Below the pieces are notes generated by a model, which saw only the letters and a program-made list of their open reading frames with translations, was not told where the DNA came from and did no database searches. From Daphnia pulex (taxonomy: Eukaryota > Arthropoda > Branchiopoda > Diplostraca > Daphniidae), in NCBI RefSeq assembly GCF_021134715.1, contig NC_060019.1, positions 12,476,001-12,540,000 on the forward strand: a DNA stretch of 64,000 nt, read 5' to 3'. Positions 3,796-64,000 of this stretch are shown here, piece by piece; position 1 is the stretch's first letter; each line of letters starts with the position of its first letter. A program made the translations under genes and the position numbers.

Positions 3796-6700
3796 TCAAC
3801 ATTGGTAGAGGCTTGCGCTGGAAATGTTGGTTGAACGGAAACATCGGAGATCATTGGTAAGTCGATGGACGTTTTGCGTAAAAGAAGGAAGATCCTAATA
3901 ATAAAAAAAGGGAGTAAAACCGTAGAAGATACAAACGAAGAAAAATAGAAATAATTATGTGTCATGTTTTTACCGTATCATTGGTGAAGCTACTTTTTAA
4001 TGCAATTCTCTGATAGTCTTCAATCCCTTGGCAACTTAGAAGGTAATCTGGAAGGAGTTGCTGAAAGAAGGCTTCGAAATCAGGAGAAGCCATGGCATAA
4101 ATAGCTAATCCTATTTCCTCTCTCAGAAGCTCGTGCGATCCATTGGTTAGTACATTCAAAAGGGTACTTATAAACTGACTGGCAATTCCATCACGGAAAA
4201 CGGACTTTGCAAAAAAACACAAATACTCTATAAACAAGAGTAGCGAAAAGTCTTTGGCACAATATCGAACTTACTTTGTGGTACAATTTCCATTTTGATT
4301 GAAGATTATCGAGGGCCTCGAGATTTTGTTTAAAAATAGTAATATCCGGCATTAAGAACGACTGTCCGTAGGAAGTCATAATGGCGATAAACTGTGGTCG
4401 ATTATCCATTTGTTCGGCACGATCCAAATCTCGAGACCCGTATGTCATCAACACCGATCCTACAAATAAAGAAAAAATAAAAATCTATCCATTGCATTAG
4501 AAATTGTTTACCCTTAAAAAACGAACGCCAATGATGACGTAAAATCAAAGTCAGCAAATGGTAGAACGTTTCTTTTATATCAGGCGAGTTCACCTAGAAA
4601 TGACAAAAATGAGAAGAGTGATGGATAGTAAACAATACGTAAAGGCATATTTTTAGACCTGCAAGATACAAGGATGGATATGATCCAAACACAATGATAA
4701 GGTGTTAGGCAAAAAACGTTTGAACGTATTGCCTGGTTCTTGGATAACAATTTGTAAAATCCGCAAGAGCCTATATCCAAGCATAAATAACTAATTAACA
4801 TGCGGTTCAATATCCCTTCTAGTTTTATAAAAACTTGCTGTTCTACTGCTCGGATTCCATGAACGTTGTCGTGTTGCAGAATTTCTTGAATATTTTGTTG
4901 TTTAAATATTTCCAGGAAGGTTTGAACCGCTTTCTCAGCGCGCCCTATTCCAAGCTGACTTAACAAGCTATCGAATATGGCCACATACAACTGAAAGATG
5001 GCTTCAGTCACCTCTGAAAAAGGAAAGCAAAATTCTTAATCAGGTTAACGTCACACTACGCGGATAATAAATTCATACCTGAATCATGAATGTAGTACGA
5101 TAGCAGAATCAGAGTCGGTTCAATCCACGGACCAAGAACCGAGAACAAGGCCGCTTTTGAAGCAGTAGTTTCATCACGAACTAGGCCAGCCAAGTCGGCC
5201 AGCAAAGCCAGTGTGGATATCACAACAGATTTGCCTTGGACTAAAAAGGGCGTCAATGGTTCTCTTCCCAGTTCTTGCACTAATATTCGCGTGGCCTGGG
5301 TAGCGCGATCCAAGGTCAACTGAAGGCGTGATTGTCGCTCTTCCCAATGCTGTTCTTCGGTGGTGCAGTTACGCCAAGTCACAATGGCAGAACCCAAGAC
5401 GCAACGCATCAATTCTCGATGAATCTAAGCATAACACACCGTCCAGTTGACAAATTATAACATATATAATAACGAAAGTTGAAACAAACAGCTGGTGGTA
5501 GATAACTGATTTCGTAAACCGAATGGAACACTTCCATCCACGAAGGGCAAGTCCATAAATCCGCTGTGCGTATGACGTTGACGACAGACGAGAGTAATTG
5601 CAATCCTGCCTGATACACCTTTTCTCGATTATTCTCTTTCACACTTCCAGCAGTGGCCCTCATGTTACACCAGGATGGACTAAAAACGTCGATTGCAGAC
5701 GCAACAAGTGCGGAGACTAGTGAGTTCACTGGCTCTTTGGGACCATCACCGTGGGCCCACATGGATATCCAGTGACACCACGCCTGCAGAGATGACAAAA
5801 CGTGTGCATGTCTATTTAAAAAAATAAACGGTTACACAACGAATTTTTAATATTAAAACCGGTGGTCTATGCTCACACTAAAGATAACGTGGACTTGAGC
5901 TCATCCGCAGGAATGCCGACAAAATTTAAATTAGACACCACTGATCCGTAGGAGGCCAAATCAACAAGTTTTTGAACAAGTGATTTCCCTACTTCGAAGC
6001 TAGAGATGAAGATGTATTAATATCTTTTAATGTAATTATGAAGATTTATAGTAATTACTGAGTGCAATAATCAGGCCCAGTGTGCAGTTCAGAAAGACGT
6101 CCAACAAGTTGAATCAGCATGGCAAGATCTTTGAAGAGAACCAACATTTCTTTAAGCTGATCCTTTGACTCTATCCGAACGATGTTGTTATTTGTGGTAG
6201 AAAGAGACGTTAATGATAGATAAGCTGAAGTGCATCGCTGGAAAGGTTCGTTTAATAATGAAAGCGTCTGATTTCTGACTAACTCTCCCGCAGTAACGAA
6301 AATTTCAATAGACTGATGTTGTATTTTTTGGCGTTCAGTTTCCATCTGCAATTCATGTAAAAATAAATCGTAAATAAAACTAGACACTCTATGATTTATA
6401 ATCCTTGAGTATACATTGCCATCAATCGCTTCGTCATCTAGTTCTTCAAGTTGGGTGATGTTACTGGCAAAAAGCGTTTTGCGGAGTACGTGTTCACTAA
6501 GGGTTACCAATGAGTCTTGGTAACGTGAAGCTAAGGAATCTCCATTAAAAATGGGCTGGCTTCCGTTGATATTGCTTGATTGCTTCACATAGTTGAGAAA
6601 TACTTGCCAAGTGTCAAGGCACGATGCATAACGACCCCAGTCAGCTTGTTCGAATGTAAAGCTGAAGAAGAGGGAAAGGAACTGCGGGACGCTGAACTGT

Positions 6701-46200: not shown

Positions 46201-49200
46201 GTGTGGATCAAAGTTTGGCGGCTGCTTTCGACGTGGATGTCATTGGCGGATTGAGTCGTTTAGCCGGATCGGCTTTGGGGAGTAGCACTGGTAAATATTA
46301 ACCAAAACAAAAAATAATTCAAATCCAATTTTGATTGTTGATTCCGGCCGAACGAATTGCATAGTTCCGATGAAACAGGAATGGCGGTTATGAAAGACAA
46401 ATGCCAATCATTTTTATCAATAGATTAGTCCCCATTGAAATCAAAGCTAGGAGCTTTTAGAGGAAAGTCACGTTCCATCCAGCACACACACACACACTCT
46501 TTTTGATTCAGGAGAGTTCATTGACCGACATGTGGCTGGCGCTCGTATAGAGTATAAATAGAATCAAAGTTGAAGGACCAATAGCAGTAAAAGGAGGAAG
46601 TCGTTTTGTGTTGACCAACATTTTGCTTTTTTTGGGGGGTGGATAACGACGACGACGACGGCCATCCGACAATGGATGTGTGTGTGTGTGTCCGCTCGAG
46701 GGAAATCTCGGTGATCCTATTGAAAGGATGAAAACACTCTTCTCGGAATCCGATCCATCCGCCGTCCGTTTCCCGATTTTCGGACCAGCTGGAGAGAGCG
46801 GGAGAGCGGGAGAGAGAGAGAAACTCGAGCGTGTTACCAATTGTTGGCGTCGACGACGTCGTTCATTGTCCTCTCCGGCCGGTCATTATCGTCTTGGTCC
46901 CGACTATATTCGACTATAAGTTAAGAGCCAAACAGTCGGGATTACTTTGACCTATTGTTCTTTAATGGCCTAATGGTTCAATAGAAGAGCTCGTCCGCTC
47001 CCCATCGCGCACACAAAAGACCAACGCGACTTGCGATTGCCATTTGGCATTTGCCAATGCACCGTTAAGCCACATGCTGGCTGCTGCTGGGTATCTTCTC
47101 CATTCGCTTCGCTTCGTTCTCTTTTTTCCTTTTTTCATGTGTACTGGGTTCACTTGTCAAATGTCCGTTTCCCCGTAAATCGATCATCGTGTGTTATGTA
47201 AGGCTCTGGTAGTAGTAGCCCCCAGGCATTGAGGGAAGCCAAAATAATTTTTTCCAGCTCAGACCAAAAAATCAATTCATTCCCCCCATTTGCTTGTTCC
47301 CTCTAGTCACTCGATAAGATGAAATCCCCAACGGCACCGTGCAGTTGTGTATTCACTGTTGTAGCGGGGGTCTTCCATCAACTGAGTCGCGTACGTGTAC
47401 GTAAAGATGTACGTAATGCAATTCGTCGCCGTAGGGAATGACGCGATTGAGATGAATGGGTCATTTGTCTTGTTTCGCTTGGTTTTTTTATTTTATTTCC
47501 CGGCTAGAGAGAGAGTATGGATTGTTATTTATGTGTCATGTTTTGTTTTGTTGTTGGTTTTTTTCACAGACAGCGGCGGAGGAGGAGGCCGTCCCGGTAG
47601 TCCGATCGGTGAGCGACGATCAAGCGGAAGCGGTGGCAGCAATAGCCGCCTAGCGGAGGACACGCTGGCGTATACGGTGCAGAGCAACGACACGCTGACC
47701 AGTTTGGCCGCCCGTTTCGACACGACGCCGTCGGAGCTGGTCGCCATCAACAAACTCCATTCGCGGCTGATTTTCCCTGGACAGGTGATTGATTTCATTT
47801 CGCCCCCCATCGGGACTTGGCGGGCAGAAGCCGTTGGGCTTTTTTTTTTTTAAAAGCCCAGGTCCATCGAATGAAATATGGCCAGGCATCAGACTGGGAA
47901 AGGAAATTGATGAATCAATCCAACAGAACACATCAATTGAAAAAAAAAAAAGTGTTAAAGAAGGAGAAGAAGAAGCGTTTGGACCGAATAGAGTGGGGAG
48001 GATTCTTTTTTTTTATTTTTATTTTTACGGGGGTTAGCGCAGCTAGGGAGTTGAGCAATAAAAGTCAAGCGTGATCAATGAACTTGAGTTAACAACTTGG
48101 GAATCCTCGAGCTCCTTCTTTCGATTAATTGCCACTTTAATAGATAGCCCAGGAGAAAGGAGAGAAAGCAGAAAAAAGATGATGATAGGGACTAGATCAA
48201 TCAAGTGGCGATTGGCTGTGTGTATCAGAGCAAAAAGAGATTCGTCCATTTCATTTCACGTGGCCTTGATTAACAACTCATTGTCATTTGTCATTTTCGG
48301 TTTTTTTATTTTGATGTAATCAATAGGTGCTGCTCGTTCCGCGCAAAGATGCCGACGCCAACCGAGGAGCTGGATTGGAGTCTGAAGGAGCCGGGACGTC
48401 GTCGTCGTCAGAGCCCGGTGAAGCCGGGACTGCTCTAGGGCCCCAAATGGCTTTGAATGTTTCCATCAGGTCGTCGTCAAGCAATAGCAATATCAACGAA
48501 GTCGGTCGCGACAGCAATGGCGGCTATTCGTCACCCACAGCCGAGCGCCCCATCGAGCACGGTACCAATACTACTCTCTCTTTCTCTCTCAAGTACCTTT
48601 TTACTACTACACCGCCACCTACCCCATTCTGTTGTCGGCTGGCCGTCACCACCACAGCCGCCTTTCATTGTCACTCGCTGTAAACGGCGTGAGACAACTG
48701 AAATTTGTTTCACAAACATTCCGGTTTTTCCCCGCTCTCACTCTGTGTGCGACAAAAGAGTTTAGTCCCTCCCATCTGCTCTGAATGTGATAAAATCGAT
48801 AGAAAGGAGTGGATCGAGAAGATAGATGCAGCTTGTGCAGACAAAGGCAGCAGAGACCCGACTAGTGCAAACGCAGTAGATCAGGAAATGAATCGAATAA
48901 ATGTTGACAAAAGCTTCAGGGCTTCTTTCAAGAGAAAAAAACACAACAACCTACGACGAAAGATGTTTTTCTTATTGTCTTTGTCGTCCGCCCAGTCGCT
49001 CGGCCGTTTGTGTTGCCCCCCCTTTTGGTTGTGTGTGTGTGTGTGTGTGTGTGAGTGAATCGATAATTTGAACAAAGTGTACTATTATGTATTTTTCAGC
49101 GTTTCTCGATAGTTTGCGACCTCCCGGATCGCCGAGGTTCAACAGGGCCGATTTGTCTTTCACCAACCAGGGGAGTGGTGCCGGGCAGAGCGGCTCGTCG

Positions 49201-52200
49201 GCCTCGGATTTCGCCAATATCGAACGAGAAATCAACAACGAAGAATTACTGACCAGCATGGACGTGGAGACGGAACGCATCAGGGATCGCAGCGCCTATG
49301 AGAAATTCCTGAAAATTCACGTCAGGCACATAACGGACGGCCAGGGAGTGGTGGCCGGCGTCCTGCTCGTCACGCCCAACACGGTCATGTTTGATCCCAA
49401 CGTGTCGGACACGCTGGTCATCGAGCACGGCGCTGAAGCGTACGGCGTCATTGCGCCCATGGAATTCGTCGTCAACGCGGCTCTCTATCCCGACATTGCT
49501 CACATGCGGCTGGCCGACTCCAAGGGCCAGCCCGACCAGCCCATCACCGATCCTATTTACTTCCCGACCAATTGCCCGTTGCACCGGAAGTACTCGATTC
49601 TCAAGGAGAAAGCCCACCTCAAGGGCAAACAGACGTCACCAGAAGAGGCCGTTGTTGATCTCGATCCAGCTGCCGGAATACTCGCTATAGCCGGTCAGTT
49701 GAGCCTCTAGTCTCGTATCTTTTCTCCTACAACTAAAAATGCCACAATTTTTCTCAGGTGACATTCAACGCCGGTGGAGTGAAGGAGAAGACACAAGGGA
49801 ATCATGTGAAAGCCAGGCGACAGCTCAAGAGGACGACGCTGCTGGTTCGTCAAAGACGTCCGATGCATCGCCATTGCCCGCCCCATCGCAAGAACCACCA
49901 ACACCCAAAGACAAAGAAACTAGGGCCAACTCGTTGACGGCCGAGAGTGTCGACGGAGCGGTCGTTACAGTCGTCTCCGAGCCTCTTTGTCCAATTATTC
50001 CTCCGCCATCCGTTGTTGAGGCCGCTCACCAGAGTGGCCATGTCATCCGACTCCACGTTAAAAGTCATTTGAATTTTTTTTTTTTTCTTTCGTGTCTCAA
50101 TCAAATTGTCATTTAACATTTTTTTTTCCCATTTTGACTTGTAGATGAACCTGTGGTTCCGTCGGCCGTTGCCGATGTGGCGGCTGGGCCGCCCGAAAAC
50201 GATTTAGTGGACAAGTCATCGCTCTCCAGTGATAATACCAAATTGACCAGTGGCATCCGCGTTGTCTCGTCCATGGACAAGACACCCAGTGGCGAACGTG
50301 AAGACGAGCTTTGCATCTCGGAAGAGCTCAACGTCACTGATGATGACGACAAAGGTGAAATTGACTTTTTGATGGCAAAAAGATCAAAAGATAGAAAGGT
50401 TTTCTTCTTATTATTGATCGATTATGTTGTCAACACAGACGAGGCGTTCCACTCTTCCACGGGCTCTGGTTATGAGCAGGCCATTAGCGAGGCTATGATT
50501 GATGAGTCCGAGTACCGGGCACGTCATTTCAGCGTTGGGACAACATCGTCCATGGGGCCCCATCAGAGTGGCGCCGCTCGGAGTCGAGCAATGCACTCGA
50601 GTTTCCATCGCCAGCCGCGTCATGCTTCCGGAGGCTCTGAGCCCATCCCGGCAAGTCGCCCTCAATCCAGCTCTCCGGCTCCTATTGCATCCTCGCCTGA
50701 AAGTAGAGGACAGCGAGTATGGCTCCTTTTTCTTTTATTATTATTTTTTTTTAAATTTAGGATCCCAGTTAGGAGCCAATTAACAATTAGCGAATTTCAC
50801 CCCCCCTGTAGATGCTGAAACGTTTGTCGTATCCGCTGGTGTGGATGGGTGAAAGTCTGACTGCCGATTCCAAAGAAAACAGTCCCGTCTTGCCCGCCGA
50901 TAAAGATCCTAATGCCGAGTCTGTGTTTTCTAAAGTCTTTTCCAGGTAAGGAGTGGCTACTTAATTCTCCTTAACTTTATTCACCTCGCTCAAAAGTCGT
51001 ACGTAAATTCCAACAAGTGACGTCGTGTCCGGTAATGTATTTTGAATTAGCCTCATTTGCATGATTGCACGGCTACATCGTATGGTTGGTTTATATTTTT
51101 TTGGCTTTTGGCTTATTTTTTCACCCATCTATTTATTGTGCATGATTGGATTTTTTAAAAATTATTTCGCGGGATTTCAATGGTTTTTATTTCATTTATT
51201 TTTTTATTCTGTTGCTTTTTTAAATCTTCTTCTGCTATCAAATCACACACACGCTTTTTTTTTGGCGATTGGCATGCTGCTGTATTATAGTAACCACCCA
51301 GATCATTCGGTGGAATTGAGCTGTGACAATTCGATGGTGAGCCAAACCACCCCCGAAGAGAGTTTGATGGTTCCCGACTTTTCCGAGTTTATCGTTCCGG
51401 ATCGATCCGGTATTCTGTTGGCCACGGCGGCCGCCATTGCCATTGGCACAATCGACGGGGCGAGGTACCGTGTCCATAACAACACCACCAACAAAACATC
51501 CCCCCTATCACAATAACTCACAACCCCCAAAGGGAAATTGGTCCACTTAACTCAAATTGTCTTATTAATAACCGAGCGATGAGAGATTATGCCATTTCGT
51601 TTCTTGATTTCTTTTGTTTTTTCCCCACCGCCATCGTCGGTTATTTGCAGGAGATTATCAACCGAGAACAGTTTGAAGCTGGACAGCCGTTTGGTGCCCA
51701 ATTTGTTCCGGGGCAAGGACCAAGGTCATCATCATCAACAGCAGCACCACCAACACCACCACCACAACAACCCAATTTCAAGCGGCCAACCACCGGCCGG
51801 TGCTCAACCCAAACTCGGTTACAGGAGCATGGTGTCGGTCGATGACGTGCCCGAATTATTTGCCTCGCTGGATAGTAAGTACTTTGACGATTTAGACTTT
51901 TTAATTCCCAAAGTAAGACAATTCAGCAAGGTTTATAATTATTGAACAGATATTAACGTGTCATGTATCACCGTGAATGTACATATCACGTCTTTTCGTT
52001 GAGCCATAAAGTGACTTTTTGACTGATTACGTCACCAACAAACAAGAGAAAGAAAGAAGCACTCTCGGTGTGCATGCCAAACCTGATCAAGATGTCAGTC
52101 TCTATAGTGATTTTATTTTGGTAGTCAAGTTCTTGGAAACAAGGAAAGAAAGAAACAAAACAAAACGACGATACTTCCGAGTAAAGAATTTCAATTCGGG

Positions 52201-55200
52201 CCTCTCTACCCGTTTTCTATTTATTTTATTTTTTTTTTCTTTTTCATTCATTGAATGTTGCCGAGTTGTTTTTGCCTTGCGCGAAGCAAAACTCATCCGT
52301 CTTTGAGGTGCACGGTTGATTAAATTGTCGTTGCCAGCCGTGATTCATCCGGAATCATCATAATAATAGTACAAGTACAAAACTGAATTCACGTGAAAGA
52401 TATCGGAAGAATCGCTCGATTAGTTGCTCTGAGATGCCAAAACTGGAATGTGATGACGATTGAAAGTTATTTTTTTTTCGTTTACCCCCAATCACACACA
52501 CGTTCATTTGTGTCATTGTCACACTAAACAAACACACACAATTCTCACTGCCAAGTGTTGTTAGACTGCACACGAAATCTATACGTTCATTGTTGCATTC
52601 GTTTATTAATACCCGCCCGTTCTCATCTTATACTCGAATTATCCAGACTGAAAAAAAAACAAAAACACATACTAGATTTCCAAAAACTTCCCCTTCGATG
52701 GACGATATACTCACTACCGGTTAATTTTATTCTGCATTATACAAATATTGTTTTATTTTCATTTGTATTTCACCCTTCTTGATATCTTTTGATTGTTCAA
52801 CGCAGTCCTTCGTTCGCCGTACTTCGAACTTAACTTTATCGGTAAGACACGTGAACAACAAATCAACCAACCCAATCAAAAAGATATTTTAAAAAGAAAA
52901 AGAATAATCTACAATCACATTTCTTCGTCGTTCTACGCCTTTATCTTTATCTTGTTTTTTTTAAATTATTATTTAATTGTTGCTGCCTTTTATTATTCAT
53001 AATCTTGCGACATGGTTGTTCCCACGTAAAAGGAGATTTACAACACAAAAAAAATGCCATAACCCAAAAGCCAACTCGCTCAACAGAAAAAAAGAAACAT
53101 TTGTGTTGCAGTAACAAGAATTTGGGTGTTCTAAACAGGAAAAGCTTGTTTCGTTTTGTTTGCCGTCCCTTCTTCGGTTCTTTTCTATACAACTTTCTGC
53201 ATCTTGTGACTGGCACGATCGAAAGAAATGTCTTGGCATGTGGACACGGCAATTGCTAAAAACCGGACAAGGACAATAAGAGTATAACGAGACTGGTATT
53301 TTAGATGCACGAAAAATTCGATTCCATTTTTTTTTGTGTGTGTGTTCCCTCTCACAACTTTCTCTCGCTTTATGAGAGTTGGCGATAAAAGTTAAATCAA
53401 ATGAGTGTTTATTTTAATTTTTTCGTATTTGACAGATTTTTTTTAAATTTTTAGACATTTTAAAAATAATTTTCTTATTCTTTGGAACGATAGAATTGAT
53501 TCCCAAGCCAGCGCAGCCGTGCGATGCCCCGCCACTCTACTTGCGACTGAGAATGGGAAAACCGCTGAACCGCAAGGGAGGCATGACCACGCCCATCATG
53601 TCGTACGGAAAGAAAAAGATGAAGCCCGAATACTGGTTCAGCATCCCCAGAGACAAGTATACAACACATATCAAAACCTAACGTCGCCACTATGCGTCAC
53701 GTGTGCCATCCGTCGTAACCTTCAACTGCAATTGAGGCGATCCAGAAGGGATTTGACGTTAGGGACTTTTTGGGAATGGACAAACACATTCCTCTGCACC
53801 AGATGATAATAATGGGACATTTTTGACTCATTCCAGCCTAGGATTTTCCCTCCTTTAGATGATACAAATGGCTTGTACGTTGTAGGAAATTGCGGCCTTG
53901 ATTTTTTTCGATTCGATTCACAGAGTTTTCCTCCATAGAATAAGATAGTGTGGGGGGGGGGGAACAATTCGACTCTAAGGAATTATGTTATTTTTGGTTG
54001 GTTTTTTTTAACCTCGGCACACGTGGATCAATTTGTTTTCAGTCAAAGGAGAAATTGTCAAATAATGATTTTGAAAAATAATTTTGTCTGAAAAAAAATT
54101 CCAGGGCGGACAGTTTGTGCCGATTCTTTTTGCTGTGGTCGCCGGATGTGTACGGAGAGCCGGGCGATGCCGACTCGGTGGCTAAACGAGGTTTCGAGCT
54201 CATCACGGAGGATCTCGAATGGGAGGAGCCGAGTCCCGTGCGAAGGACGAAACCCGTCAAGAAAGCCAAAGGCCAACTTGGCGGCAAGAGCAAGAGCGGC
54301 GATCACGATCAAGTCGGCGGCGAAGATGAGGACGATCCCCTCGGAGTCACGGCCGAGCTGGCCAAGGAATCTTGGGAGGTACAGTTTTTTTTTAACACAA
54401 CACACTTTTCAAGTCTTTTTCTTCCCAAACTCTTAACCGGTTCAAACAATTCCTTTTCTTCACTGTGTCTATCTTTTTCTCTCATATTTCTTTTGTCTCT
54501 CTTCTTCAAACGATCAACGTCGATCGGACTGTCGCTGGGGCGCAACAACAAAAAAAAACAAAACACGAAAATCATTGCCAATCGTTTTTTAAAAAATCAA
54601 AAACAAAAATAATAGCGTGCCAAAGCTCCCTATGTCCGCTTGTTCACCATTCTAAAGACGCAGGCAACGCTATTCGAGAGTGACCAGGATGAGGTGGGCA
54701 AAACCAAAGTTGTTCCGCATTCCGTGTTGTGTAGTCTATATATTTCTGTATATAGAGGCTGGCTGGCTAGTTGATTCTCACACGCCATATCTTTATTGCT
54801 AGTTGGTAGACAACACACATTTATTTTTTTTTTTAAATGGAATTCATTTCCACCACTGACCCCGTGCACACGCACTCCTCACACACACATTCACTCACAC
54901 GCGCCTACGCACACACACACGACGCACTTCAACGTGTTGTGTCTGGTTGACCTTGTTTCGGTTATTCACCTGTGCAGTCGTCAAGAGATTTTTGTTGATT
55001 TTGATGAATCATGACGTCGATTACTTTTTTGGCGTCGATATTTTTATTTATTATTTTCTTTTTTTCTAATCCCCAATTTACATGCGTAAATGTTTATTAT
55101 TTTGACACATTTGTGTGTGTATCTGTTAGTGTTGGTGTGTACGTGTTGTTTACGTTTCAAATCGCAATCTGTTTTTGGTTTGACGATAAAGAAAAAGGTG

Positions 55201-58200
55201 GTTGAAAGTTATTTTCGATACTACCAGCCCCCCTTTATTACGTTTTTTCCTCCTCCTGATTTTCTCAACCCACTATCTATCTATAGCGCCCTCTCTTTTT
55301 ATTTCTCTCTCCTAAGCTCCGCCCGTCAACCTCGATTCGATTTGGTCAGAAACAAAATTTTAAGGTGTGCCAGAGGAAGGGGCTACGAAAGAAAAAAAAA
55401 CAAAAAAAAGACGTCAGATAATCCGCGGTCTGAAAGGGAATTGAAATTCGAAATTGTTTTCAAAAAAACAAAAAACCATTTTGATGCGGTTCAAAATGAG
55501 CGGGTCGGTTTCGCCCACTTTTTCTGGTTGGGTCGGCGAGTTCTTTTCGACTCCACCCCGCGACACGCGCCGCTTAGTATATATATACACAATACCTAGT
55601 AGCCGACGTCTACACTTTGTCCCACTACCAAGTTGGAAGGAGCGACTCTCCTCTACTCTCCCATTTTTCCCGTGGCTATTGGAAAGCTTTGCTGGCCTTC
55701 TTCTTCTTCTTTCTCAGTCGTCGGCCCCCAGTCTTGGTTCGCTCTTCCGCCGAGTGCCATCATCTGCTGTTGCGTTTCATTTGAATTGAAATCGATTAAT
55801 TTTTCTCGTTAAACACTTGAGCAGCAGCAGCATTTCCAGATGCTTTTCGCCAGAAGAAGACTTAGCTCCACATCGCTTGTGGCCGCTTCTGTAGGCCCAT
55901 TTTCATTTTAAAATTCCGTCAGTCCGTCGCGTCTCTCTACTTTTTGTTGTAAACGTTTTTCTCGTTTTCTTACGTGTGTGTGTGTGTGTGTCAGTGTGCA
56001 GTTCAAACTTTCTGTTGTGTCCGACCAGGTGAAACAAGTTCGAAAAGCGGGTCTTTTGGTTTTTATTTTTCTTCTCGGAATCGACACTCGTTCCCGTTTA
56101 TGGACGAATTTTTGTGATAGTTTTATTCGTCGTACAGCTGCCCACGTGATGGACGAATGAAACAATTTCACGTCCTTCCCGTTGATTTGTGTGTCCTCAT
56201 TTAAAAAGAAGACAAAAAAATATTCTTGCTCATCCAGCTCATCCTGCTTGGCGTCGTTCGTTCACACAGCATTCGAGCATTGAATTTTTGTTTGTCTCGT
56301 CGTCTCCCTCCCGTCATTTTGCCTGATTGAAAACGGAAGATCTTTTTTAAAAAGAATTAAACGAGAGAGAATGGCTGAAACTTCCTCAGCAACCAAATTG
56401 TCCTTCCGGACTAAATCGAGTGGCCATCATTCCAAGAAATTCGTCTCATTTGTCCAATTCTGCAATCGAATCAAAAAGGTTGTGTCTCCTGAAATCTCTA
56501 TTTAGTTTCCTTCTTTGTCTCTCTTCCAACTTTTAATTTGAATTTGGTTACCTTTTTTCTTTAAATTCCCTTTTTCAACCAAAATTTACACAGAAATTTA
56601 GAGTGTGAGAGGGGGGGGGGGGAGAGAGAAAAAGAATTGAATGGCGTTTATCCGAAAGCGCGTGGACGACCTTGTCTTGATTTCTCTCGACAGAAATCCA
56701 AGGGAAGGGCTGTCATTTATTTCATTTGATGCATAACGTACCAAAATGCCCTACATATTACCTTTTAATGGTTTAATAAGGTTCTACAGTGTTGTCCTTG
56801 AGGCTCGAGCGCGGCGCATATCACTTTTGTTTTTATTTATTTCTTTAAGAAACAAATGTTTAACTTAACCGGTTATTTGCATACGCACACAAATTCCCAA
56901 AAGTCTTCTTCCGTCTAACCTTGTGGTATCACGTGAATCTTTGTGTTGCTGTCTCGTCTCGAATAGAACTTGACGACCACTTTGAGAGTCTCTCTCTCTC
57001 TATCGCAAATGGTTTCCTTATTTTTCATTTTCTACGACTAACCTTCTCCATTTCCTTATTTCGACTTTGGGATTAATCCCCGTCGTGTTATTTTTTCGTC
57101 CCGAAATTAAATTAACCCGGAATGTTTGTTGTTCGTATATATTATTGTTGTTAATTGTTATTGTCTGCTAATGTATTAGGTTGAGAGCTTTGTTCTTTCA
57201 GTTTCTATTTATGAATTCCTTTTCTTGCTTGTGACGTGTGCTGATCGAAATTTCTTTTTTATCTTTTTCTTCTTTTTGAATTTATGCCACGTCATAGATC
57301 GTTTCTCTGAACGAAGAAGTGCGCAGGGCGTTGTACGGCTCTGAACGTTTGAGCGCACTCGATCTGGACTCGTACCTGCCCGACTTGATTGGCCCCACCG
57401 AAGTGCTGACTGACGAATATCGCAAACAGCTGGCCAAACATTTGCCAGCTCGCGTCGAAGGTAACGTGTCCAACTCGTATGCAACGTAACAGCTTGCAAT
57501 AATTCGAGAGAGTGAATATTTTTAATTGGAACTTGACGTGCTTTGTGTGTGCGTTTGGCAGGTTACCCTTGGTCGCTGGTGTTTAGCACGTCTCAGAATG
57601 GATTCAGTCTCAACTCGCTGTATCGTAAAATGATCGGCATCGATAGTCCCATTCTGCTGGTGATAGAGGACACGCAGGGAAATGTGAGTTGCGCGCTTTT
57701 TATTATACGTGCGTGCCATACTGGCGAATCGAAATTGTTTTAATAATTGGATGCTTTTTTGGGGGGGATGAACAGGTTTTCGGCGCCATCACGTCGTGCG
57801 AAATTCGCGTCAGCGAATCATTTTACGGCACGGGCGAATCGCTCCTCTTCGTCATCAACCCCAAAATGCAAATTTATCCGTGGTCGGGCGACAACTCTTA
57901 TTTTATTCAAGGCAACAACGAAAGCTTGGCCATCGGAGCCGGAGAGTAAGCCAATCTCGCTATTTATTTCGTTAACTGCTCACGTACAGTCCAAAACCGA
58001 CAAACAAAAGGTTTCATTTTGAAAACTCAGATATGTGTTAATTCCGCTTTAATAATGCTGGAAAAATGTTGAAACCTTGAGCCGGTCAATGTCTCAAGTG
58101 TCTTACGCCATCGTAGTCACGTAATGAGGAAACGTATGTAGTCGACTTAGTTTATATTTCAGCCTTCAAATCTTTTGGAGAACATTTGACCAAAAAGGTT

Positions 58201-58458
58201 GACTTGTTTACCGCCACCTATTTCTAATATCGGATTAGCATACCTGTTTACGCTGTGTCTTGAATTTATGGCGATAATCTCACACGCGTTTCCTTATCGT
58301 CTTTTTCTTTGGATTTGAACAGTGGCCGTTTTGGATTGTGGTTGGACGGCGACCTGAACCAAGGGCGGACGCAGACGTGTAAAACATTCGGCAACGATCC
58401 GCTCAGTCCGGATGAAGACTTTTGGGTCAAGACGCTCGAGTGCTGGGCGTTCATGTGA
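34115..58458 (+). CDS. mtd: OXR1/mustard-type TLDc protein with LysM and GRAM-like domains (large gene, alternative starts)
   Basis: This is the orthologue of vertebrate OXR1/NCOA7 and fly mustard, proteins that protect against oxidative stress and bind the V-ATPase through TLDc. Common exons are 46187-46290, 47570-47784 (LysM: YTVQSNDTLTSLAARFDTTP), 48327-48561, 49100-49693 (GRAM-like: FLKIHVRHITDGQGVVAGVL), 49758-~50063, 50145-50354, 50439-50716, 50812-50945, 51291-51464, 51651-51874 (YRSMVSVDDVPELFASLD), 53494-53656, 54105-54378 (FFLLWSPDVYG), then TLDc exons 57298-57460, 57562-57683, 57776-57945 and 58323-58458 (TGA at the end). TLDc reads from RVEGYPWSLVFSTSQNGFSL to DEDFWVKTLECWAFM. Phases agree at every junction except the uncertain donor near 50.03-50.06 kb. 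With the 5' exons at 34.1, 37.4 or 40.0 kb the products would be about 1,195, 1,317 or 1,523 residues. Linker regions are Ser/Pro/acid-rich and probably disordered. Confidence 0.92.
35274..35313. repeat. ATT/TTA trinucleotide repeat
   Basis: Near-perfect TTA units are interrupted by one ACG, in the OXR1 intron after exon A. Confidence 0.8.
37425..37876 (+). CDS. Alternative first coding exon B of the OXR1 gene
   Basis: This exon encodes 150 residues starting MASNGSFTKTPKKDKYLKIP and ending ...LAKTLRKK across the junction. The donor AAAA/GTAAGC leaves phase 2, matching the common exon at 46187. The protein is Ser/Pro/Arg-rich with many SP/TP sites and no recognised domain. Its GC content is far above the surrounding introns, which supports real coding. 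CT repeats and pyrimidine-rich sequence precede it. Confidence 0.75.
39973..41042 (+). CDS. Alternative first coding exon C of the OXR1 gene
   Basis: This is an uninterrupted 356-codon exon starting MASTGTGTMKQQRRRFSLQT and ending SHLFWPPSALFGRSR, with donor AG/GTAATC in phase 2 as for exons A and B. It is GC-rich, Ser/Arg/Pro-rich and probably disordered. Repeated RSxS/SPT motifs look like kinase sites, and there is a basic C-terminal KKRRSLSHLF segment. An ATG further left (39927, other frame) gives a much shorter ORF. I find no recognised domain. Confidence 0.75.
43302..43318. repeat. Homopolymer run of 17 C
   Basis: An uninterrupted C17 tract lies in an OXR1 intron. Its length is likely unreliable in any assembly. 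Confidence 0.8.
44825..44850. repeat. GT microsatellite
   Basis: A perfect (GT)13 run lies in the long OXR1 intron. Similar runs occur at 49030-49053, 45200-45240 and 55976-55990. Confidence 0.85.
45063..45096. repeat. TTG trinucleotide repeat
   Basis: A nearly perfect TTG array lies in an OXR1 intron. Another is at 33842-33865, upstream of exon A. Confidence 0.75.
47570..47784 (+). other. LysM-domain exon of the OXR1 gene
   Basis: The exon opens with a Gly/Ser linker and then encodes a LysM module (AYTVQSNDTLTSLAARFDTT, then ELVAINKLHSRLIFPGQ). It finishes in the next exon as VLLVP. LysM is present in long OXR1/NCOA7/mustard isoforms. The domain is cytosolic or mitochondrial here, not a wall-binding module. 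Confidence 0.9.
49100..49693 (+). other. GRAM-like domain exon of the OXR1 gene
   Basis: The exon encodes the PH-GRAM-like module of OXR1/NCOA7: KFLKIHVRHITDGQGVVAGV, LLVTPNTVMFDPNVSDTLV, EHGAEAYGVIAPMEFVVNAA. Codon use is strongly GC-biased, unlike neighbouring introns. Confidence 0.88.
52806..52841 (+). CDS. Candidate 36-nt cassette microexon of the OXR1 gene
   Basis: The exon is bounded by a pyrimidine-rich acceptor (TTGTTCAACGCAG) and a strong donor (GTAAGA). It enters and leaves in phase 1, the same as its neighbours (51651-51874 and 53494-53656). Inclusion adds twelve residues (I LRSPYFELNFI) and changes the junction Lys to Glu, just after the VDDVPELFASLD motif. Without it the junction reads SLDKLIPKPA, as in the family. 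Confidence 0.5.
54616..54693 (+). CDS. Candidate 78-nt cassette exon of the OXR1 gene
   Basis: The exon is preceded by an AATAG acceptor and followed by GAG/GTGGGC. Both phases are 0 and the frame is open (RAKAPYVRLFTILKTQATLF...). Skipping it joins SWE to IVSLNEE, like the vertebrate SWEIITVEE. Inclusion adds 26 residues immediately before the TLDc region. It lacks a clear pyrimidine tract, so it is less certain than the constitutive exons. Confidence 0.4.
56371..56478 (+). CDS. Internal alternative first exon for a short TLDc-only isoform
   Basis: The exon encodes MAETSSATKLSFRTKSSGHH and on to NRIKK (36 codons, phase 0), ending AAG/GTTGTG. Joined to 57298 it yields a 232-residue protein consisting almost entirely of TLDc. 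This parallels the short vertebrate NCOA7-B and short fly mustard forms, which start from internal promoters. The donor is off-consensus (GTTGTG). Confidence 0.6.
57298..58458 (+). other. TLDc domain exons of the OXR1 gene
   Basis: Four exons encode the C-terminal TLDc domain. Landmarks are LAKHLPARVEGYPWSLVFST, LYRKMIGIDSPILLVIED, VFGAITSCEIRVSESFYGTG, ESLLFVINPKMQIYPWSGDN, SYFIQGNNESLAIGAG and GRFGLWLDGDLNQGRTQTCK. The end TLECWAFM carries an extra Met instead of the acidic or Gly ending common in the family. Confidence 0.93.
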
Positions 58459-61400
58459 AAGGGGCATTCATTTGGTTGTTGATTGTAACTCTTATAAAAT
58501 CTCTCTCTCTCTCTCTATATCTATATATCTATCTTTCTCTCACTCTTTCACACACACTCACACAGATATGCAGACACACACCACCATCCCCACGTATACA
58601 CGTCAGTGTAACACACACATACTCTACTCTTCAAACAATTCCCTTCCTCTCCCCCCCTCTACCTCCTCCTCCCCGCCCCATTTCTACCACCTCCCTCGAC
58701 CTGCATCAATTACCCTCTCGCGCCAAATTAAATATCGTAGCTATATATATTATATATTCTAACCAATAATGGAAATAAAAAGAATGAAACGAAAAAAAAA
58801 CAAACCCAAAAAAAAGGAGAAAAAAAAAGCACATCAAGATATTGATCTTGTATTGTTGTTCGCTAGTGAGGGTGGGATCGTTGCGATTCACTCTGTACGT
58901 CAATTTTTCAAAAACTGTGTGTGTGTTATATAAATATACAGCTCTAGATCAGAGCCGCATCGGCGCCCAACCTGCCCTGCCTGGTGTTTTTTTGTTTTGT
59001 TTTTTTCTGTACAGATCACATTACTACGTACACATCTCCTTCCCTCTTTTCCCTCCATCTCTTTTTCTCTCTTCTCCTCTTCGGTTAAATTGTCGTCGAC
59101 GGCCTGAAAAAAAACAAAAGTTTCCGTTTCAACGCAAATGAAAAACAAATCCCTACTCCCATCCTTCCAATGTTCGTTCAAACATGTCATTGTGTTGATT
59201 TACAAATCCCTTTGCCCATTAACATGATTTGAAGATAAAAGTTAAAAATAACAACTCAAAAGCAAACACGGGATCGACCCCAACCCGAAAAAAATAAAAA
59301 TCCTGCAGCCGAAAAAAAACCACAAATATTTGCAACCCCATCGAAAATAGTGTTGAACATTTTTTTTTTAAATCCTTTCTGTAATTCAGAAGAGAGTTAA
59401 GAGACGAGGAATTGAACGGTTGTTGTTGGTATAATGTTGATGTCATTTAATTGTTTGGTTGCGTATATACTATTCTCTTCTGTATAAGCAATACACACAC
59501 AACATGGCTTTCACAATCAAAACATTGAGATTTATTTTGAAAATGATGCAATGTGACACACGTGTTTATCATGAGAAATCTTTCTTTTGATTGGTGCCAC
59601 AGGACTGACAAAAATATAGATACGTAGTGTTGGCACGTTATAACTTATTGGGTCGTAGGAGAGAAAAAAAACTTTGTTATCCTCATTCGTGAACAAATCA
59701 AATCATATCTTTTTATGTCGATTGCCGAACATGGTCTATTTAACCTGAGATGATTGACAGCCATGTCAGCATGTATTAAGATAAAGATTATTTCTCTATC
59801 AAACCTGACACGGTCATACGGTTCCATTTGATCCAAGTGACGCATATCCTTAATCCCAATAATCTTTTAAAAAAACTATCTTTATGGATTCATTGACGTA
59901 CGTCCGATGTGTAGATTTTTATATCGTTCACGTGTTGAGTCCATGTGCCTGTTTAACATTTCAAATAACATTTTCAATATAAAATAGTTTCAACATAAAA
60001 CAGACCCAGTAAACCGTAGCGCATGTTGGTCTCGTTCGTCATTCACAATCGAACACTATCAAATGACGCAACGTATGTTCGTTAGCTGCAACGACGACTC
60101 CATTGTTTAAATAGGCGCGCCTAACCTCACACCTCTTCAATCCGGTGCTTCTGCACTTAAATGAACCGGTCAAAGACCAATTGCTGGTTTATTAAAAAAT
60201 ATATAGATTTCTCAATGCCCACACAAAATGTGCATCAAAGTTTCTTGGCAATTCAATGAGCGACCTATTTTCATGACTGGGGAAGCGACGATAATGCCCG
60301 ATGAAAGAGCGAATTCAACATTCAACACAAGATCACCGAATGTTTTGTGCTGCGCTTACTAATGATCTTTTTGAAAAGTTAATGCTAATACGGTAGCAGC
60401 TATCACTCCGAATCCGAGAAATTTTGAATGTCATGGGGCAATAAACGGAATTGAATATTGTAACAATCAGAGAAAAACGAAAATTTGTTACAATTATATT
60501 ATTAATGAGGACGAACCTTCAACTTTTAAAAAACCTGCGAGATATCGCGTAAGTAGCAGTTTGAATTTCTTATATCGAACGTTTATAATTCATCGCGAGT
60601 CATCTAGCGATAGCTAGAAAAAGCAAGATTCGGGCGCCCTTTAACACTGCGTAGCTGCTATAATGTGTACAAAAATATAGATACACAATTTAGTTGGATG
60701 AATACTTAACTGGCTATTGGTTGAATCGGGTTCAACTTTCGTCCAACCGTATGAGAGAACTAGAACTCAACATTACGCAGTAACGTTTTCAACAGAGTTG
60801 AAATGCTTGAGAAACAATTTGCACCAAAACTTCCATTGTTATTGAAATTGTGGCTTTAATTCAGTTGGATCTGTAAAGGGCTGATGGTATGAAGAGATTC
60901 AAGGGGGACATTTCAGGAGGGGGAACGATGAATAGCGATGATGATCCGTTGAAGTTTCAAGAACTGAACAGTTAGAAACTTAAAAAAAAATATGATATAA
61001 TACTCTTTGATAGTAATGCAATACAAAAATATTATTAAGGGTGGGGGATGTATGTACAAAGAAAGGCGGGAAAGATGAAATGAGGTAGGCCCACGTATTG
61101 GCCTTTAAAAAACCGCCTAGCTTTGTTGTTTAAAAAAGGATAATAATTACCACTATAAATTCGATAGTAACACTGTAAACGTGTCAAGTGGGTTTTGCTA
61201 CGAGATTCTAAGCGAAATAAAGAAAAAAGCGCATGTGATGACGACCACAGGGCGCGTCCAGCAACTGGGAAATGTTAACAAGCAATTTGGCAACGCTTTT
61301 TAGTCCAGCATATATCGTTGTCTGTCTCGGCTTCACCATTCGTGTGAAACAAAATTCTCTTTGATGCTGATCCTCGTGTACAAATTTTTTTCTATATTTA

Positions 61401-61620
61401 CGCTCTTTGTGAAATCGAAATGCCCGAATCATTTTAGTGCTAGATTTTTTCTATTTTAAATCCTTTATTTGATTAAGTTGTTTTTGCCCACCCGTGCTTG
61501 CGGAATATTTTCAAAATCGCATTTTAAAGGTCTGCCCTTGTTCCCAAAACACTACACACTATCAAGCCCTCGCCCATATCATTAAAAAGATTCTACTTTT
61601 ATTTTGATTGCACTTTTTGA
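58459..61620. other. OXR1 3' UTR and intergenic region before FBXW7
   Basis: The first kilobase contains CT, CA and A-rich tracts (58500-58830) typical of a 3' UTR, with AATAAA-like sites near 58772. From about 59.5 to 61.6 kb I see no exon, RNA gene or bounded repeat. Confidence 0.4.
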
Positions 61621-61758
61621 CTCGTAACGCCATTATAATTTTCGCTGCACTTTTCACTGGATTTTTATCGACGGTAAGTGTGAATCATTCTTGCTTTGTT
61701 TCATTATTGTTATAAAAAGAAACCTTTATTAACAACATTGAATCTTCTTTCTTGGCAG

Positions 61759-61825
61759 ATGAGATGACTAGTGTTTAATTGAGGATATGAGTTGTTGTCT
61801 AGGCAGCTGTGTTTTGGTTTCCTAG
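61759..61825 (+). promoter_or_regulatory. Cluster of three upstream ORFs in the FBXW7-locus leader
   Basis: After a leader intron (donor GTAAGT at about 61674, acceptor CTTGGCAG at 61758) the exon starts directly with ATG AGA TGA (61759-61767). ATG ACT AGT GTT TAA overlaps it (61764-61778), and a 12-codon ORF lies at 61787-61825. All end before the main ATG at 61888 and could damp its translation. Confidence 0.55.
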
Positions 61826-61887
61826 TAATAGCTCAGCTTCTCAATCTCTAGCTTACGTAGCAGTCAGAAACCCAGCAGAAATAATTT

Positions 61888-64000
61888 ATGCCAGCGTCCA
61901 GAGGACGGAGTAGTGGGAGGGGCATGGGCGACACTGCTAATGAAAGTCTAGCTCAGAGAAACCTGGTAGACATCAATGTGGCTACTGTTGAAGAGCTTTC
62001 CACCTTGGTTGGAGTTGGACGCAGCAGAGCTGAAGCCATTGTGGAAACCAGAAATGTAAGTTTAGGATTAACCCAACACCAGTGTGTTTTATATGGTTTT
62101 GACATGTGTTTTTCCTTTGTAGTCCCTTGGAGGATTTACATCCATCGAAGATCTAAGTCTGGCTCCAGGTGTGGGGACAAATTTGATTGAAGCCAATCGT
62201 CAGATACTAACAATATCAGTACCAGCTCAGTCGTCTCAGGTGAATGCAAGAAAAGCCAACACTCGGAGCAGGTAAATAGTGTTATACAATACTAAATTTA
62301 TACCCCCTTCTCATGGTTTTGCTATTAGTGTAGGTATATTTCTTTATTGTTACTCTTATCTAAGCCTTTGTTCTTTGGATTAGGCAAAAATGCGTCATTT
62401 GATTCTAAACATGTTTTGTTGTTGCCCTAGAAGCAGTGATAATACAAGCGCTCAACCGACTCCGAGCACCACACCAGTGATATCTAGTTCAAGTGATAAC
62501 GCGACAGAAGACCAGCAAAACGACAGTGGAAGTAGCAGCAGCAACGAATGGGGTGCTTGCCGTTTGAGGCAGCGCCGGTCAACAAGCAGAATAAATCCAC
62601 TGCCCGTTGGCAAATCGCCTTCGCTTCGACAGACTCGGAGCAACGATAGCATCATTCAATCGCCTCCTCCTCTCCCCACAACACCTACATCATCGACACC
62701 TACTGCTCCTGCCAACGACGCCAGCAATGTATCCGTTAAAGAGGAATCACCCACCTCGGAGAATGATGACGTCGCCAGACCAGGAGCTGTAAGTTTATCC
62801 AACACTTATTTGTTATTAAGAACATGAATTTAATTAAGGTGGTGTGTTGTAGACCAAGCGCAAGTCGGAGTCGACAGCTGAGATGGCAGCTGAAGTAGCC
62901 ACGGAGAAAAAAACATGTCGAAGGGGTGAAGGTGTTGATTCATCTTCCTCGTCAATCTACTGCCATGTTCACCGTAATCCGATTCCCTCGAAAGACAATC
63001 CTCCGCCAGGATTTTGCCAGTGGCTTCACACGTTCCAAGTATTTTTCGTCATTCTCTCAACCACTAACTCATTGCTAAGAAAAACCATTTGTTATCATTG
63101 CAGTACTGGTCGAACGCTGAGCGTTTATGTGCCATTGACCAACTGATAGAGCTGTGTGAACCCACTCAGGTCCGTCACATGATGGCTGTTATTGAACCAC
63201 AGTTCCAACGCGATTTCATATCGCTGCTGCCCAAAGAACTGGCTCTGTATGTTCTCAGTTTCCTCACGCCTCGCGACTTGACTCGCGCCGCACAAACCTG
63301 CCGTTGTTGGAGAGTCTTGGCTGAAGATAATCTCCTCTGGCGAGAAAAATGTCGTGAAGCGGGTATCGATGACGTTCGTGATACTCTAAATAAGCGACGT
63401 CTTCGCGGATCTTCCCACCACTCATCTCTCAGTTGTGGTCTTTCTTCCCCCACCGGATCTAGCCAAAACAATGCACCAATTATTACTCCGTCACCCTGGA
63501 AGGTGAATAGATCAATCTGGCTTAAACGTTAATAGGTTGCAAGATAATATTGATTCGTTGCATTTTCAGGCGACTTATATGCGTCACCGAAATATTGAGT
63601 TGAATTGGCGAGTGAGGCCGATCCCACAGCCAAGGGTATTGAAAGGTCATGACGATCACGTCATCACCTGCTTACAGTTTTGCGGAAACCGCATCGTTTC
63701 GGGATCGGATGACAACACGCTCAAAGTCTGGTCGGCTACTACGGGAAAGGTAATTCATTGGGCTTTCTGCCTAGACAGGACAAAGACTTTAAAAACGCGA
63801 AATGTCTTAAGAACAGACAACCATTTAATTGTCATTTCACTCAACAGTGCATGAGGACTCTGCAGGGACATACGGGAGGCGTTTGGTCCTCTCAAATGCA
63901 GGGAAATATTATAGTCAGCGGGAGTACAGACAGAACCTTAAAAGTCTGGAACGCTGAGTCTGGACAGTGTTTGCACACATTATACGGCCACACCTCCACT
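61888..64000 (+). CDS. FBXW7: F-box/WD-repeat protein FBXW7 (archipelago), 5' part, with in-frame N-terminal HhH exons
   Basis: This is the substrate receptor of an SCF ubiquitin ligase that recognises phosphodegrons (cyclin E, Myc, Notch). Exons are 61888-62055, 62123-62271, 62431-62788, 62853-63038, 63104-63502, 63570-63749 and 63848 to the window edge; all phases agree. Residues ~27-90 form a helix-hairpin-helix pair ([38 protein letters not shown]) not expected in FBXW7. A Ser/Pro-rich region follows. Then comes the family core: [20 protein letters not shown], the F-box [13 protein letters not shown] (~residue 330), [15 protein letters not shown], and WD40 repeats from [15 protein letters not shown] (~residue 439) through [18 protein letters not shown]. 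The gene is cut by the window end in the second WD repeat. An alternative start at 62390 would give [14 protein letters not shown] joined in frame to the same exon, omitting HhH. Reading through the exon-2 donor gives an immediate TAA (62273), so a separate ~106-residue HhH protein is also possible. Confidence 0.9.

Follow-up and report, generated by a model that had tools for sequence, protein, structure and literature searches.

In Daphnia pulex, a helix-hairpin-helix (HhH) module and the ligase subunit FBXW7 are predicted to be encoded in one frame by a single gene, with the module setting where the ligase works through a hold on DNA; we give this whole explanation, weighted towards the gene model, a probability of roughly 0.6. 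The gene runs off the end of the window, that is, the whole stretch of 64,000 nucleotides that was analysed (NC_060019.1, positions 12,476,001 to 12,540,000). Spliced by script from the window and the sequence downstream of it, the fused gene has 11 coding exons and an open frame of 775 residues, and the order of its predicted product is HhH module, serine-rich linker, F-box and WD40 repeats. It is very likely that a fused transcript exists. HhH-FBXW7 is a probable new N-terminal variant of FBXW7, in which the HhH exons would form either the main or an alternative 5' end.

Gene model and the junction between the HhH and FBXW7 exons

Gene coordinates are given in window numbering, and those past 64000 were read from the downstream stretch (Table 1). 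GT/AG dinucleotides were picked by eye as intron ends, and the open frame and the match to human FBXW7 served as checks on them. The stop codon of FBXW7 lies outside the window, at 65034-65036.

Table 1. Features of the predicted HhH-FBXW7 gene (window numbering)
Feature	Positions	Strand	Remarks
All coding exons	61888-62055, 62123-62271, 62431-62788, 62853-63038, 63104-63502, 63570-63749, 63848-64029, 64107-64332, 64404-64614, 64690-64794, 64873-65036	+	from splicing
I0, candidate 5'UTR intron	61674-61758	+	85 nt, GTAAGT...TTGGCAG, GC 0.28; splice consensus only
Candidate 5'UTR portion of exon	61759-61887	+	three short uORFs; in-frame TAA 61882-61884
E1, start codon and first HhH motif	61888-62055	+	168 nt, residues 1-56
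I1, splits the HhH module	62056-62122	+	67 nt, phase 0, after N56
E2, second HhH motif and linker	62123-62271	+	149 nt, residues 57-105 and two bases of codon 106
I2, between HhH and FBXW7 parts	62272-62430	+	159 nt, phase 2, GC 0.31; contains ATG 62390
E3, Ser/Thr/Pro-rich	62431-62788	+	residues ~107-225; tandem acceptors 62431/62434/62437
E4, KRK-rich segment up to WLHTFQ	62853-63038	+	residues 226-287; contains Met236
E5, pre-F-box segment and F-box	63104-63502	+	F-box-like residues 326-371
E6, linker and start of WD40	63570-63749	+	profile and structure matches
E7, WD40	63848-64000, continuing to 64029 outside the window	+	four more exons follow

The preliminary description had noted that a phase-2 donor, AG/GTAAAT, and an acceptor at 62431 restore the frame into the serine-rich N-terminus of FBXW7. 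This was borne out: the I2 donor CAG/GTAAAT at 62272 and the acceptor CCCTAG/A at 62431 restore the frame, and the spliced frame stays open over its full 775 residues. The acceptor is a tandem TAG-AAG-CAG (62428-62437), which allows exon starts at 62431, 62434 or 62437, one codon apart and all in frame. The donor, CAGGTAAAT, scores 10.07 with leave-one-out matrices from the introns of this gene, a value reached by 0.11% of the GTs in the window, and its 9-mer is identical to the donor of the FBXW7 intron I10. The TAA at 62273, the supposed stop of a separate HhH gene, falls inside this donor. A phase-2 exon that is followed by GTAA must show a TAA there if it is read through, and the stop of a separate HhH gene is therefore what a donor yields. 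The two strands of the window together hold 881 stop-to-stop ORFs of 40 codons or more. Scored with a donor matrix that left out I1 and I2, 52 of them have a donor of at least 5 within 6 nt of the stop, 15 have one of at least 7 and 3 one of at least 9; only the HhH ORF has a donor of its score at that distance.

Methionines of the fused protein occur at positions 1, 13, 236, 313 and later. E3 has none in frame, and Met236 in E4 is the first after the HhH exons. Translation must therefore start upstream of E3, whether in the HhH exons, at ATG 62390 in I2, or in an unrecognised exon. The composition of I2 (GC 0.31, or 0.30-0.31 over the gap between the two parts) compares with 0.28-0.37 in the other introns and 0.43-0.53 in the exons. 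No AATAAA or ATTAAA is found in 61601-62589, and thus none in I2; the first such signal downstream is an AATAAA in E3, at 62590, and it is followed only past the FBXW7 stop by an ATTAAA at 65170.

Two points weigh against the model. The acceptor at 62431 is weak, in that 30% of the AGs in the window score as high with a matrix drawn from only ten other introns; among the FBXW7 introns, I3, I6, I7 and I10 have acceptors in the same weak range (58%, 23%, 31% and 20% of AGs). Codon scores came to -0.037 (E1), -0.047 (E2) and -0.018 (E3) bits per codon; the null for the window has its median at -0.056 and its 95% point at 0.073. Since these values lie near the null median, codon usage gives no support for coding; the scores of E1 to E4 were all near the null, and the test did not discriminate. 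Nevertheless, the prediction of one gene rather than two is well supported by four sequence arguments, namely the donor on the stop, the methionine-less E3, the intron-like gap and the frame-keeping acceptors. These agree with the original proposal that the HhH module is in frame with FBXW7 as one gene. The competing model offered alongside it, in which an HhH gene of ~106 residues ends at the TAA at 62273 and FBXW7 begins at ATG 62390, fits less well.

At the 5' end, the in-frame TAA shortly upstream fixes the N-terminus at ATG 61888 unless another 5' exon is used. The context of this ATG is poor, with T at -3, and it is preceded by short uORFs that begin at ATGs 61759, 61764 and 61787 (61759-61823). 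These uORFs and the weak ATG may hold down translation of the mRNA; alternatively, Met13, with G at both -3 and +4, may serve as the start codon. ATG 62390 in I2, a possible alternative start, has A at -3 and a frame that opens into E3; 62390-62431 has a low codon score (-0.27 bits per codon, n=12). If an internal promoter exists, one could speculate that the cysteine cluster following this ATG forms a lipid-modified alternative N-terminus.

Other splicing patterns were considered and set aside. Single first exons in 57000-62788 with a donor score of 7.5 or more and a length of 20 codons or more came to two donor/phase combinations, both of which use the E1 donor at 62056. Splicing of E1 straight to E4 is in frame, but leaves only half a module, and a donor at 62240 in E2 scores 8.45 but ends in a different phase (counted by hand).

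In the neighbourhood of the gene, no RNA families were found at gathering scores in 57000-64000. Upstream ORFs on the same strand occupy 47386-54609, the first of which carries a LysM domain (47386-47850, 8.9e-13); we take this region to read like OXR1/mustard. Four further ORFs scanned there gave nothing above the Pfam cut-off. Downstream of FBXW7 (L017, 3700-4950), repeats give the impression of being ankyrin-like and are followed by kinase-like sequence, apparently on the other strand.

Domains of the predicted protein and their relatives in the genome

Residues 25-85 match the Pfam profile HHH_3 (E 1.1e-14, 54.7 bits against a cut-off of 27, model positions 4-64 of 65), and residues 25-87 match NCBIfam TIGR00426, the ComEA HhH repeat region (59.8 bits against a cut-off of 53.1, model positions 6-69 of 69). 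Two GVG hairpins are found at residues 42-44 and 72-74 (counted by hand). Exons 61888-62055 and 62123-62271 had been described as encoding a tandem HhH with two GVG hairpins, and both the coordinates and the two profile matches agree; the module predicted from E1 and E2 is a complete (HhH)2 of the ComEA/EEPD1 type. Ten solved chains were listed for the module up to an E of 10. Human EEPD1 ranks first among them (9yi2, E 1.3e-16), and the list also has two chains of "ComE operon protein 1" (8dfk, 3.7e-10; 8dss, 1.3e-6). The module is 42% and 33% identical to the first and second HhH pairs of human EEPD1, 39% and 40% identical to two ComEA chains, and 37% and 31% identical to the first and second pairs of the EEPD1 of this genome; over ~60 residues these identities are too close to decide on an origin such as bacterial transfer. 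I1, of phase 0, sits two alignment columns from a phase-0 intron in the second HhH pair of the genome's EEPD1, the positions not being identical. The splice sites of I1 are good, with a donor score reached by 0.44% of GTs and an acceptor score reached by 0.14% of AGs.

The lysines K164, K193, K197 and K199 of Bacillus subtilis ComEA correspond to Arg47, Asn76, Ala80 and Arg82 here, two of the four being basic, according to a hand count on the alignment to the solved chains with an inferred numbering offset. By this count the basic position of ComEA is retained in the first hairpin (Arg47) and absent from the second (Asn76).

Further along the protein, residues 226-775 match human FBXW7 chains (best 7t1y, E 1e-247). 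The WD40 propeller is complete, as seen in an ungapped block of 362 residues (query 189-550 against 7t1y 96-457, 708.6 bits). The F-box-like domain is recognised by Pfam at 3.3e-15, and its block aligns with 7t1y from TQVRHMM onward (121.4 bits). The segment before the F-box presumably resembles the human D (dimerisation) domain; the matches to human chains begin only at TQV.

Genome searches took in the whole assembly (133,188,837 bases, 13 contigs). A query of 244 residues from the FBXW7 core gave 39 matches, the five best of which all lie in this gene. The best match outside it is to WD40 only (contig C5, 52.7 bits), the F-box part has a few weak matches elsewhere on C3, C5 and C8 (31-43% identity, 24.7-31.5 bits), and no second FBXW7 was found genome-wide with this core query. 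The HHH_3 profile search found five stretches at four loci, all above the cut-off, and the present gene is one of the four. The EEPD1 locus on C12 has two HhH pairs, of which the first shares 65% identity with human EEPD1, and the sequence following them looks, to our eye, DNase I-like. In this EEPD1 (L018, reverse complement of ~4880-6200) the first HhH pair lies in one exon and the second is split by a phase-0 intron. The locus on C9 (2.7e-17) is presumably SRBD1/Tex-like, and that on C6, which adjoins kinesin-like sequence, is taken to be KIF22-like. A genome-wide search for the HhH protein of E1 and E2 found no second copy, its three matches being these two exons and EEPD1.

More distant collections were also searched. 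In the viral collection, the 106-residue HhH query gave 19 pattern matches and the 244-residue FBXW7-core query gave 2, while the first 377 residues of the fused protein gave 57 in the prokaryotic genome collection; none was a confirmed relative. Misses in the viral and prokaryotic collections carry no information on arthropods.

A possible DNA tether and competing readings

Mammalian FBXW7 isoforms are described as sharing a common core and differing in their N-termini, with locations in the nucleoplasm, cytoplasm or nucleolus (PMC6081812; PMC8573206), in agreement with the statement in the preliminary description that these N-termini set localisation. The HhH exons would likewise set where the ligase works. 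The HhH module would grip the backbone of DNA of any sequence, and dimerisation of FBXW7, as reported for the human protein (PMC8573206; PMC9294282), would pair two such modules. SCF-FBXW7 would in this way stay close to its phosphorylated substrates, whether on chromatin or where DNA is damaged or being replicated. We infer DNA tethering from the homology to EEPD1 and ComEA and from the known role of FBXW7 at DNA breaks. In accounts of the human protein, FBXW7 is drawn to double-strand breaks via PAR and ATM and ubiquitylates XRCC4 there (PMC8573206; PMC9294282). The HhH domains of EEPD1 have been called DNA-binding and RuvA-related (PMC4684289), and a model of the ComEA pair on DNA has it bind mostly through the backbone, K164 of the B. 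subtilis protein being described as central (PMC9747964). Given the fusion, a DNA or chromatin tether is somewhat favoured as the role of the HhH module; a fused transcript and such a tether jointly stand just short of even odds. More tentatively, an FBXW7 ortholog with a built-in DNA-binding head may allow phosphodegron proteins on DNA to be ubiquitylated in place, without recruitment through PAR or ATM. Human examples of such proteins are Myc, cyclin E and repair factors. Should the FBXW7 of this genome form dimers like its human counterpart, there would be two DNA clamps per dimer.

The main rival, a role for the HhH module in docking protein, is rather unlikely given the fusion. The full reading of this kind, in which the fusion is real and the module binds protein, so as to dock a partner or substrate class or to modulate SCF assembly, is slightly less probable again. 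Pasteurella ComE1 is reported to bind fibronectin as well as DNA via the same two HhH motifs (PMC2601033), and by the hand count the second hairpin has N76 in place of the basic residue at ComEA K193. However, EEPD1 and ComEA, the closest relatives in sequence, are described as DNA-binding (PMC4684289; PMC9747964), and Arg47 keeps the basic position of K164.

Readings that deny the usual joining of the two parts fare worse, although the odds given to the several readings are not mutually exclusive in the strict sense. It is improbable that the locus has two outputs, with FBXW7 mRNA arising mostly from I2 and translated from ATG 62390, an HhH protein of ~106 residues ending at the TAA at 62273 through intron retention or premature polyadenylation at the AATAAA at 62590, and the fused mRNA rare or absent. 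The open frame and A at -3 of ATG 62390 are in keeping with such an arrangement, and the AATAAA in E3 could serve a short HhH transcript that reads through. Against it, only 114 nt of intron-like GC content separate the HhH TAA from ATG 62390, the HhH stop coincides with the high-scoring I2 donor, the gap has no AATAAA or ATTAAA, and the first codons from ATG 62390 score poorly. It is very improbable that the HhH exons are left over from an EEPD1-like gene, decayed or not expressed, and lie upstream of FBXW7 by chance with coincidental splice sites. Although the module resembles the first HhH pair of EEPD1 in this genome and in man, and codon usage gives no positive sign of coding in E1 and E2, both exons are open, both hairpins are intact, the Pfam score is twice the cut-off and the I1 sites are good; EEPD1 itself is present on C12.

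Relation to known proteins and significance of the predicted fusion

Several known proteins come close to the predicted product. The F-box and WD40 domains are shared with FBXW7 alpha, beta and gamma; the isoform descriptions in the two sources cited for mammals name no HhH domain (PMC6081812; PMC8573206), in contrast to the HhH N-terminus predicted here. EEPD1 has an N-terminal ComEA-like HhH pair like this module, but in its published description a DNase I-like domain accompanies two HhH domains (PMC4684289), whereas here one pair is placed on an F-box and WD40. Among the 25 of 38 Pfam matches listed for the fused protein, which continues to the F-box and WD40, none was to the EEP family. 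ComEA likewise has an (HhH)2 with both hairpins, but it is described as a bacterial DNA-uptake protein and is without F-box or WD40 (PMC9747964). FBH1 is an F-box protein with a DNA-acting domain of its own, and its ligase is reported to target RAD51 and to alter the chromatin level of RAD51 (PMC10707325). The DNA-acting domain of FBH1 is a helicase, not HhH, so the resemblance is one of outline only. The open-licence PMC literature yielded no account of an HhH-FBXW7 or HhH-F-box protein, in line with the earlier remark that no HhH-FBXW7 protein was known. A database entry with this architecture may well exist unremarked.

FBXW7 is a much-studied tumour-suppressor ligase whose recruitment to chromatin, ascribed in man to PAR binding via WD40 and to ATM phosphorylation, is not fully settled (PMC8573206; PMC9294282). 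The predicted fusion would be a natural experiment, in which loss of two small exons could reveal which substrates or damage responses depend on a direct hold on DNA. If common to many arthropods, it would be an old and overlooked feature; if confined to this lineage, it would point to recent exon shuffling. Modules of this kind usually hold DNA, and the one predicted here could anchor a tumour suppressor directly to chromatin.
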